DNA of 64,000 bases from Microvirga aerilata (lineage in GTDB: Bacteria > Pseudomonadota > Alphaproteobacteria > Rhizobiales > Beijerinckiaceae), in the NCBI RefSeq assembly GCF_016743775.1, contig NZ_JAEQMY010000017.1, forward strand, positions 1 to 64,000. Direction: 5' to 3'. Shown here one piece after another: positions 19,943-23,859 of the stretch. Positions within the stretch are counted from its first letter, which is position 1; every line of letters starts with the position of its first letter. Made by a program: the position numbers and the translations under genes. The notes beneath the pieces are model-generated. The model did not search any database and was not told where the DNA came from. It saw only the letters and a list, made by a program, of their open reading frames with translations.

Positions 19943-19967
19943 GGAACCAGTTTCAGTGCGGCCCGTT
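19943..19967 (+). promoter_or_regulatory. EcfG-type promoter for a short RNA
   Basis: GGAAC at 19943–19947 and CGTT ending at 19967 are separated by 16 bases, a perfect consensus match. No credible coding sequence follows before the terminator at 20013–20044, so the product is probably an RNA of about 70 bases. Confidence 0.8.
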
Positions 19968-19973
19968 ATGACT

Positions 19974-20044
19974 ACAACCGGTCCGAATGCCCCCTTGGAC
20001 TGGCACCTTTAGAGGCGCAGCTACAATGGCTGCGCCTTTTATTT
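19974..20044 (+). ncRNA. Candidate EcfG-dependent small RNA with C-rich loop (sRNA 1)
   Basis: Predicted start is about seven bases after the promoter's GTT. The first hairpin pairs CCGGTCC (19978–19984) with GGACTGG (19997–20003), allowing one G–U pair, and exposes a 12-base loop with five consecutive C. A linker leads to a terminator hairpin of AGGCGCAG and CTGCGCCT (20013–20037) followed by TTTATTTT. The only ATG nearby, at 19969, lies before the predicted start. A C-rich loop, a short length and control by the general stress sigma factor are the features of Caulobacter GsrN. Homology to GsrN is not shown, only the design. Confidence 0.6.
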
Positions 20045-20081
20045 TGCCTGCTGCGATCCCAAGCCGCCCTCAAAAGCATAC

Positions 20082-21909: not shown

Positions 21910-21935
21910 GGAACCTTTGTTTTCCGAGCAGCGTT
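21910..21935 (+). promoter_or_regulatory. EcfG-type promoter for a short RNA next to phyR
   Basis: GGAAC at 21910–21914 and CGTT ending at 21935, 17 bases apart, within the accepted 16–17 range. No gene starts on the plus strand before the terminator at 21996. Confidence 0.8.
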
Positions 21936-21941
21936 CTTTAA

Positions 21942-22022
21942 GCACCGGCCTCCTGGTCCTCCCCGCATTCCCCTTGTGCATTGGCCGGCACCTCAGACGG
22001 GCTTATGAGCCCGTCTTTTTTT
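21942..22022 (+). ncRNA. Candidate GsrN-like small RNA with a large C-rich loop (sRNA 2)
   Basis: Starting about seven bases after the promoter, the RNA would form a stem of CCGGCC (21945–21950) and GGCCGG (21983–21988). This encloses a 32-base loop with CCTCCCC and a second run of four C. The terminator follows at once: GACGGGCT and AGCCCGTC around a TATG loop (21996–22015), then seven T. The CCUCC core is complementary to Shine–Dalgarno sequences. Position beside phyR, the EcfG-type promoter and the C-rich loop all parallel GsrN of Caulobacter. The RNA is about 80 bases. Existence is predicted, not shown. Confidence 0.65.
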
Positions 22023-22100: not shown

Positions 22101-22907
22101 TTAGGCGGTGGCGGCGCGGGGTTCGCGGCGGCGGGCGCTCTGCTGGAAGAACAGGGCTTGGCTGATCACCGCGGATACGTTCGCGGGCTGGAACGGCTTG
22201 GCGATTAGGAAGGCCGGCTCGGGCCGCTCACCGGTCAGGAAGCGCTCCGGATACGCGGTGATGAAGATCACGGGCACCTCGAAAGCCTTGAGCAGATCGT
22301 TCACCGCATCGAGGCCCGAGCTGCCGTCCGCCAACTGAATGTCGGCCAGGATGAGGCCCGGCTGCTTGGCGGAGGCAAGCTTGACCGCCTCGGTCCGTGT
22401 GCGGGCGACACCCGTCACGTTGTGGCCAAGGCCTTCGACCAGGGCCTCGAGATCCATTGCGATCAGAGGCTCGTCCTCGATGATGAGGATGTCGGTGGCC
22501 ATGTCGGCTGCCAGCTCGCGGCCGGCCTCGTCGACAAGCTCACGAACGGTTCTGGTGTCCACATCGAGGATCTGGCCGACCTCTTCCTCTCCGAAGCCTT
22601 CGAGGCAGGACAGAAGAAAGGCCTGACGGGGAAGTGGGGTAATCTGTCCGAGGCGGACCTCCGCCGGAAGATCGCGCTGGATCTGCTCGCTGCGGCCGTT
22701 CACCGAAAGGGAGTTCCAGATCCGTGTGAAGACCTGGAAGAGCTCGACCTTCACGTTTCCGGAAGGCCCGATGGTTTCCGGCTCGCTCACGAGCGTTTCA
22801 AGCGTGGCGGCCACATAGGCGTCGCCCGCCATCTGGCTGCCCGTGAGCGCGCGTGCATAACGGCGAAGATATGGTAAGTGCTGGACGACAAGCTGAGCTG
22901 TCGACAT
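22101..22907 (-). CDS. phyR: General stress response regulator PhyR
   Basis: A 268-residue anti-anti-sigma response regulator. Residues 1 to about 125 form a sigma-like (EcfG-mimic) domain. The rest is a receiver with the acidic pair E144/D145, phospho-acceptor D189 (ILADIQLAD), T217 in FITAYPERF and K237 in IAKPFQP. The FITAYPE stretch is the FATGUY-type variant typical of this alphaproteobacterial pathway. When phosphorylated, PhyR binds NepR and releases EcfG. The ATG at 22907 is chosen because AAGGGGAAG precedes it and the N-terminus MSTAQLVVQHLPYLRRYARAL matches the family. It is divergent from nepR–ecfG, and its own promoter has an EcfG-type sequence. Confidence 0.97.
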   Translation of the reverse strand: MSTAQLVVQHLPYLRRYARALTGSQMAGDAYVAATLETLVSEPETIGPSGNVKVELFQVFTRIWNSLSVNGRSEQIQRDLPAEVRLGQITPLPRQAFLLSCLEGFGEEEVGQILDVDTRTVRELVDEAGRELAADMATDILIIEDEPLIAMDLEALVEGLGHNVTGVARTRTEAVKLASAKQPGLILADIQLADGSSGLDAVNDLLKAFEVPVIFITAYPERFLTGERPEPAFLIAKPFQPANVSAVISQALFFQQSARRREPRAATA

Positions 22908-22957
22908 TCGCTTCCCCTTAAACTGTGCTTTTGACTCGCTGTACCGATGGTTCTTTA

Positions 22958-23014: not shown

Positions 23015-23092
23015 ATTGCTCGAAAACAAATATACGGATACTGCCAAGGTTGGCCATCCCTCCAAAAAAATCGGGGTGGCAAGGGGAAGAAT

Positions 23093-23317
23093 ATGACGGT
23101 TGACAAGGGGAACAAGCTGGCGCGGGCCGTGATGGACAACTCCCTGGACGACAAGCTTGCAACCGATCCGAAACTCGACAGCGGCAGCCAGAAACGAATC
23201 GGCGACCAGTTGCGCGCCATGTACGACGAGCTGATGCAGCAGCCCGTGCCCGACCGTTTCAGGGAATTGCTCGACCAGCTCGACAAGAAGAACGGGACCA
23301 AGGAGGGGTCTCAATGA
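23093..23317 (+). CDS. nepR: Anti-sigma factor NepR
   Basis: A 74-residue protein whose second half (IGDQLRAMYDELMQQPVPDRFRELLDQLD, given here only as positions about 36–64) is the conserved NepR two-helix core. NepR holds EcfG inactive until phosphorylated PhyR takes it away. The ATG at 23093 is chosen for its GGGGAAG site and family length; the upstream-open frame would run through the promoter. Its stop overlaps the ecfG start by four bases (ATGA), which couples anti-sigma and sigma synthesis. Confidence 0.95.
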   Translation: MTVDKGNKLARAVMDNSLDDKLATDPKLDSGSQKRIGDQLRAMYDELMQQPVPDRFRELLDQLDKKNGTKEGSQ

Positions 23318-23859
23318 CCCCAGACCCGGAGCCCGAGTTACGAGAGGCTCTTCTTGCTGCGGTCCCCAGCCTTCGGGCTTTTGCCATTTCGTTATCAGGT
23401 CAGGTCGATAGAGCCGACGATCTTGTGCAGGACACCATCCTGCGCGCCCTCTCCAACCTGCATCGGTTCGAACGAGGGACGAACCTGAATGCCTGGCTGT
23501 TCACCATCCTTCGCAATCTCTTCCACTCCGAGTATCGAAAGCGCCGCCGCGAGGTGGAGGATCCCGATGGATCCTATGCAGGCCGCCTGAAGGTCCAGCC
23601 CGAGCAAGGCTCCCGCCTGGACTTCGAGGACTTCCGCACCGCCCTTGCCAAGCTCCCCTCCGACCAGCGGGAAGCGCTTCTTCTGGTGGGGGCTTCGGGC
23701 TTCTCCTACGAGGAGGCTGCGAGCATCTGCGGATGCGCGGTCGGGACGATCAAAAGCCGGGTGAACCGCGCCCGCTTCCGTCTCGCCTCCCTGCTGAATG
23801 TCGACGACATCGAAGATTTAGGCCCCGACAGCATGACCCGCGCCGCCCTGCAGGGGTAG
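23314..23859 (+). CDS. ecfG: General stress response ECF sigma factor EcfG
   Basis: A 181-residue ECF sigma factor of the EcfG (ECF15) group. Region 2 is at about residues 18–85, with DDLVQDTILRAL and NAWLFTILRNLFHSEYRK. Region 4 is at about 115–165, with LPSDQREALLLVGASGFSYEEAA and a GTIKSRVNRAR helix for -35 recognition. It directs RNA polymerase to GGAAC-N16/17-CGTT promoters, ten of which occur within about 6 kb here. It starts inside the end of nepR, and a strong terminator follows 40 bases after the stop. Confidence 0.96.
   Translation: MTPDPEPELREALLAAVPSLRAFAISLSGQVDRADDLVQDTILRALSNLHRFERGTNLNAWLFTILRNLFHSEYRKRRREVEDPDGSYAGRLKVQPEQGSRLDFEDFRTALAKLPSDQREALLLVGASGFSYEEAASICGCAVGTIKSRVNRARFRLASLLNVDDIEDLGPDSMTRAALQG

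Follow-up and report, generated by a model that had tools for sequence, protein, structure and literature searches.

The window analysed here, 64,000 nucleotides of the Microvirga aerilata assembly GCF_016743775.1 (contig NZ_JAEQMY010000017.1, positions 1 to 64,000 of the forward strand), carries phyR, nepR and ecfG of the general stress switch close to two candidate small RNA genes, with the features below.

19943 to 20050, plus strand: second candidate EcfG-driven small RNA, with a promoter from 19943, a stem CCGGTCC/GGACTGG, the loop GAATGCCCCCTT and a terminator
21910 to 21935, plus strand: EcfG-type promoter GGAAC-N17-CGTT (GGAAC at 21910-21914, a 17-nt spacer, CGTT at 21932-21935)
21941 to 22022, plus strand: predicted small RNA of about 80 nt, its start placed about 6 nt past the -10 element
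21945 to 21988, plus strand: core hairpin CCGGCC...GGCCGG, with arms at 21945-21950 and 21983-21988; these are the 44 positions of covariance model R1
21953 to 21964, plus strand: module 1, CUGGUCCUCCCC, retained by the majority of phyR-linked copies seen; paralogues mostly lack its first part
21965 to 21968 and 21976 to 21979, plus strand: predicted inner hairpin GCAU/GUGC, holding the proposed seed
21968 to 21976, plus strand: proposed seed UUCCCCUUG, complementary to the nepR and phyR Shine-Dalgarno sites
21995 to 22022, plus strand: intrinsic terminator, a hairpin at 21995-22016 with a 9-pair stem, then seven T to 22022
22104 to 22907, minus strand: phyR, convergent neighbour of the small RNA
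22912 to 22919, minus strand: phyR Shine-Dalgarno AAGGGGAA, proposed target, an 8-nt complement of the loop
22990 to 23015, plus strand: EcfG-type promoter upstream of nepR-ecfG, from a motif scan
23080 to 23088, plus strand: nepR Shine-Dalgarno CAAGGGGAA, proposed target, a 9-nt perfect complement of the loop
23093 to 23317, plus strand: nepR, the anti-sigma factor gene, from its reading frame
23314 to 23859, plus strand: ecfG, overlapping nepR by ATGA

Read directly from the window sequence, positions 21910-22022 of the plus strand hold an EcfG promoter, a CCGGCC/GGCCGG stem with exactly 32 nt of C-rich loop between its arms (CCTCCCC and CCCC included) and a terminator, the whole reading toward the 3' end of phyR, which has its own terminator-like site on the other strand. 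The longest C run in this loop is four, and there are two separate C4 blocks. A sequence-only reading of the same DNA had placed here an EcfG-type promoter, a stem with a 32-base loop and a seven-T terminator, together making up a small RNA gene that adjoins phyR; the parts are borne out base for base, and the gene they were taken to form is supported by what follows. Structurally, the fold z-score is −2.74 for 21930-22022 and −2.91 for 21941-22022. The pattern GGAAC-N16/17-CGTT occurs at eight sites, whereas 0.6 would be expected for 64 kb (the mean of 20 first-order Markov sequences), and all eight fall between 19878 and 24264. Mechanically called open reading frames overlap the region, and core lengths across 105 loci picked by their loop (43, 44, 45, 46 and 48 nt in 2, 99, 2, 1 and 1 loci, respectively) differ by single bases, which makes a protein-coding reading unlikely. 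The stretch is apparently a non-coding RNA gene of a conserved kind, and it is apparently transcribed by EcfG, the general stress factor.

Conservation was followed from the genus outward. A 63-base query found an orthologue in 47 of the 48 genus genomes, the sole genome without a match (G026) being 92% complete and in 780 contigs. Model R1, a covariance model built from eight phyR-linked copies, matched at least 93 of 397 genomes of the GTDB family at E<1e-6 among the matches listed, with its strong matches, again among those listed, falling in g1 (44), g28 (44), g153 (2) and g139, or Salinarimonas (3); at E<=1, it matched 205 of the 397, mostly weakly. The sequence-only reading had expected promoter, loop and terminator to be conserved, had named their absence from close relatives as the observation that would count against it and had suggested a covariance search with a model built from the element; the parts proved to be present in close and in more distant relatives, and the genus and family counts above are the outcome of those two checks.

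For the separate parts we used the 105 loci, which carry the exact 19-nt loop pattern, with one genome per species; since the loop was the selection criterion, its invariance in this set is no evidence, and the other parts were unselected. The names among the 80 listed of these loci are Methylobacterium, Methylorubrum, Microvirga, Salinarimonas, one Rhizobiales strain and a few bins. Every one of the 105 has a promoter with (C/T/G)GTT 16-17 nt after GGAAC (exactly CGTT in 101), a stem and, by a permissive rule, a terminator. A convergent phyR lies within 2.5 kb in 99 of them, 131-582 nt from the loop pattern; four of the other six loci end within 450 nt, and two (L219 and L266) are without phyR in 4747 and 2073 nt. 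Outside the exact pattern, several Methylobacterium-type copies have a first C block of five or six and one has AACC instead, and among 11 chosen copies from relatives, seven have runs of five C and three (L140, L141 and L146) runs of six. Across 297 genomes of the order, the loop pattern with at most one mismatch matched six, five of them in the window's own family and its own genome included; the sixth (G143) was rejected by eye, promoter and stem both missing. On 26 of 28 phyR loci from other families, the best R1 match had a chance-like E of 0.035. Weak matches within the family (L148-L151 and L165-L169) were also excluded as members, promoter and loop missing by eye. A bin named Rhizobiaceae (L174), with a phyR 98.5% identical to that of the window and an RNA of the same kind, is probably mislabelled.

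Paralogues of the loop occur as well, with three further copies in the window's own genome (C347, C371 and C11) and up to six in other genomes of the genus. They keep CCCCGCAUUCCCCUUGUGC or near forms and have both stem arms replaced, giving GGACCC/GGGUCC, CGGCCC/GGGCCG and CGGAGG/CCUCCG, and the three Salinarimonas orthologues have CUGGCC/GGCCAG. MAFFT alignments across stem types were out of register, so we relied on the model from the eight phyR-linked sequences and on a separate test in which arms were re-paired 500 times among 33 members: the true arms change together, with a mean score of 12.8 against a mean of 8.8 (maximum 10.5) for re-paired ones. Rows left out of the alignment were a reverse-strand false match in L035 and near-identical or untested rows. 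Most members are predicted to contain the inner hairpin GCAU/GUGC, which is GCAC/GUGC in one subtype; its loss in Salinarimonas makes it inessential.

Upstream, GGAAC is found in 22 of the 23 paralogues examined, a count that leaves out L081 and L092, two exact loop copies that have no upstream GGAAC and were excluded as members. Many of the paralogues with GGAAC have a GATT- or ATT-like -10 element, unlike CGTT. At L038, L040-L043, L084, L085, L088-L091 and L093, GGAAC is followed by GAATT-, GGATT- or AGATT-like -10 elements, and most of these loci also have a second conserved hairpin region in common; paralogues with such elements are perhaps read by another EcfG paralogue. By listed coordinates compared by hand, an ecfG-like gene lies no more than 3 kb from at least six of 22 paralogues, against 0.32 expected. 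Eleven genus genomes, the window's own (G000) included, have 10-24 ecfG-like matches each among the matches listed, some of them partial or only about 40% identical. The window's genome has eight hfq matches, one of them next to the C11 paralogue, which also has an ecfG-like gene beside it. At that locus (L277, G000:C11:2600-18600), about 3 kb of a single strand hold the ecfG-like gene, the additional hfq, whose identity to the main one is about 55%, and the small RNA paralogue. With the ecfG-like copies of the eleven genomes and the hfq copies of G000, genes for the stress response and for an RNA chaperone have been multiplied to an unusual degree.

The second candidate RNA, at 19943-20050, recurs with its promoter outside the window in at least 22 of the 105 named loci, a lower bound because the 8-kb loci often fall short of its position. 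Without the promoter, its pattern was found in 43 of 248 family genomes, where the GAATGCCCCCT-type loops of the own genus and the matches in three g139 genomes look real and most others look like chance. Two of its stem pairs change on both sides, and the covariation is weak, 53 of 500 shuffles reaching the observed score.

Functionally, the loop points to the ribosome-binding sites of its neighbours. Along its whole length, the segment UUCCCCUUG (21968-21976) is complementary to the nepR Shine-Dalgarno CAAGGGGAA (23080-23088), and it complements that of phyR over 8 nt (AAGGGGAA, 22912-22919, minus strand), with a predicted seed pairing energy of −13.8 kcal/mol. It had been suggested from the letters alone that a CCUCC core could bind Shine-Dalgarno regions; CCUCC itself is mostly absent from the paralogues, whose common part is CCCCGCAUUCCCCUUGUGC, and what stands is a specific complementarity to the nepR and phyR sites, which lies in the UUCCCCUUG portion of CCCCGCAUUCCCCUUGUGC. 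That the loop complements the ribosome-binding sites of two genes belonging to one stress switch is a new observation.

How far it extends can be judged from start sites in relatives. AGGGG precedes nepR in 83 of 87, phyR in 87 of 89 and ecfG in 9 of 34 scorable sites of the named loci, and in other families of the order it precedes nepR in 0 of 22 and phyR in 5 of 28; start codons were picked by a rule that rewards AGGGG, and it was this same rule that gave 0 of 22 for nepR in other families. The full AAGGGGA is present at 43 of the 89 phyR sites and missing from 46. Among 871 start sites taken by a simple rule, a background made up largely of orthologous neighbourhoods and including nepR, AAGGGG occurs at 17 and AAGGGGA at five, and five other window genes behind EcfG-type promoters have AGGAG, GGAGG, GAGG or GGAG forms and no AAGGGG. 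Because orthologous loci share descent and are not independent, Fisher significance values for such counts are inflated. Changes in the loop are not mirrored at the sites: nepR of Salinarimonas has no AGGGG, and several Methylobacterium-type loops have lost or changed one base while phyR retained AAGGGGA. Ranked by duplex energy among 44 window start sites (45 rows, with phyR entered twice), phyR comes third and nepR seventh, so neither stands out on energy alone. With 12-mers complementary to each half of the loop, searched in 48 genomes, many genomes had no site beyond the RNA copies themselves and hence no 12-nt site is common to all 48; for the first 12-mer, a reversed-pattern control yielded similar numbers.

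In Alphaproteobacteria, the current understanding is that the general stress response works through a partner switch made of proteins. We propose, with a probability of roughly 0.55, that an RNA of about 80 nt transcribed by EcfG would pair with the nepR and phyR Shine-Dalgarno sites and feed back on the PhyR-NepR-EcfG switch. Within the general stress response, EcfG would transcribe this non-coding RNA, the stem would present its C-rich loop, and the segment UUCCCCUUG, common to the paralogues, would pair with the unusual CAAGGGGA/AAGGGGA Shine-Dalgarno of nepR and phyR, blocking or modulating translation of nepR (and with it ecfG) and of phyR. A fall in NepR would amplify the response, whereas damping would follow from a fall in PhyR and in coupled EcfG; given the nepR/ecfG overlap and the role of PhyR as activator, net damping, a negative feedback, seems somewhat likelier than amplification. 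Judging from the hfq content of the genome, the RNA may use Hfq. A broader picture, which we hold tentatively and at less than even odds, is that the stress-induced RNA would close a post-transcriptional loop through its nepR and phyR sites, and that in Microvirga this circuit would have been multiplied, as same-loop, new-stem paralogues that tend to adjoin an extra ecfG, with one cassette also containing an extra hfq, and with a second hairpin RNA at the window's own locus.

Feedback on the switch has to be weighed against a plainer role, in which an EcfG-driven RNA of GsrN type acts downstream on many G-rich mRNAs, has no special part to play at nepR or phyR, and meets AAGGGGA there by inheritance. 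Loop changes that go unmirrored at nepR or phyR would be expected of such an RNA, as would other window start sites that pair equally well or better by energy, and GsrN itself targets katG and co-purifies with many G-rich RNAs, no feedback being found in the passages of PMC5869019 drawn on here. We nevertheless regard this role as rather unlikely, since AAGGGGA is rare elsewhere (five of 871 start sites) yet stands at both switch genes, and nepR of other families has no AGGGG (0 of 22).

The target might instead be a protein and not an mRNA, with the C-rich loop acting as a decoy that draws off an RNA-binding protein or imitating a ribosomal site. In the phyR-linked copies, the conserved loop runs to about 28 nt and does exceed the usual seed length, and the eight hfq matches would suit a protein partner, but the paralogues retain only CCCCGCAUUCCCCUUGUGC or near forms and the match to two Shine-Dalgarno sites of one switch requires no such protein, which leaves the decoy improbable. 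It is more improbable still, to the point of being hard to credit, that there is no independent RNA and that the element is left over from a promoter and terminator, acts in cis as the end of phyR or is a short coding gene: the small RNA does end beside the phyR-side terminator of the other strand, and reading frames do overlap it, but loop and stem are conserved far beyond what a terminator needs, copies exist away from phyR, nearly all of those examined having GGAAC upstream (22 of 23), and core lengths vary by single bases. Against these alternatives, pairing with the nepR and phyR sites is the reading we prefer. It would make this RNA a conserved, small candidate with base-pair predictions on two switch genes, in a clade to which the laboratory genus Methylorubrum/Methylobacterium belongs.

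There, EcfG3 of M. extorquens is suggested to be regulated at the protein level, "possibly by a small RNA", in the portion of PMC4814048 used here, and the RNA of the window is a candidate for that regulator; the portion of PMC6520949 used here leaves small RNAs of M. extorquens unexamined by its authors. The RNA had been called undescribed, and this holds in that no description was found among open-licence PMC papers and there is no Rfam family: Rfam (release 15) gave no window match above its gathering cut-off and, around the locus, ten matches at E<=10 that all stayed below threshold.

The closest known system is GsrN (Tien, Fiebig and Crosson 2018, PMC5869019, cited throughout for the passages drawn on), which is driven by an EcfG-class factor, has a 5' C-rich loop and a 3' terminator, and sits near general stress response genes in most Caulobacteraceae; processing to a 5' isoform, stabilisation by Hfq and the katG leader as a target are further traits of GsrN. 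Shared with it are the EcfG-class promoter directly upstream (read here from sequence, in all 105 loci and with exact CGTT in 101), the 5' stem with an exposed C-rich loop, the 3' terminator, and a place near stress regulators, 99 of the 105 loci here having a convergent phyR no more than 2.5 kb away. Moreover, nepR, a proposed target here, is a pull-down partner there: in Caulobacter, the nepR-sigT mRNA co-elutes with GsrN, and the authors found neither regulation nor feedback on the sigma factor in the passages concerned. The two differ in that the loop published for GsrN contains a run of six C in place of the two separate C4 blocks of the window's RNA, in length (about 106 nt against a predicted 80 or so), in the proposed nepR and phyR Shine-Dalgarno targets and in the family with swapped stems. 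The earlier label "GsrN-like" is kept as an analogy of architecture and setting, not as a statement of homology to Caulobacter GsrN, and the six-C run is absent from the window. A promoter-plus-loop GsrN pattern, only inferred from the target table of PMC5869019, was found in 0 of 385 genomes of the class and is uninformative.

As a kind, EcfG-driven RNAs beside general stress response genes are already published (PMC5869019), with GsrN-like RNAs predicted in Rhizobiaceae, Rhodopseudomonas palustris and Bradyrhizobium diazoefficiens, the latter two by position and promoter alone; the main text does not contain the word "Methylobacterium". The suggested Hyphomicrobiales counterpart is therefore, as an idea, not new for other genera. 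Likened by published description and not by sequence, those predictions share the EcfG site and the position at the stress locus, and the Rhizobiaceae ones also the C-rich loop. At 3 of the 28 phyR loci, which come from three other families, an EcfG-type promoter close to phyR precedes a predicted RNA that has a long stem, a C-rich loop and a terminator (L299 2392-2516, plus strand; L309 3529-3630, minus strand; L313 3515-3645, minus strand); R1 does not match them, and they were set aside as analogues and not counted as relatives. From the portion of PMC3927594 used here, the SmelA075/SmelA099 type shares a conserved C-rich anti-Shine-Dalgarno loop on stems of variable sequence and differs in having three or four hairpins, each with CCUCCUCCC, whereas the window's RNA has one C-rich hairpin plus terminator, a different loop and no CCUCCUCCC. 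By architecture and position, the predicted small RNA beside phyR belongs to the GsrN kind, and by analogy, it probably works as a GsrN-type stress RNA.
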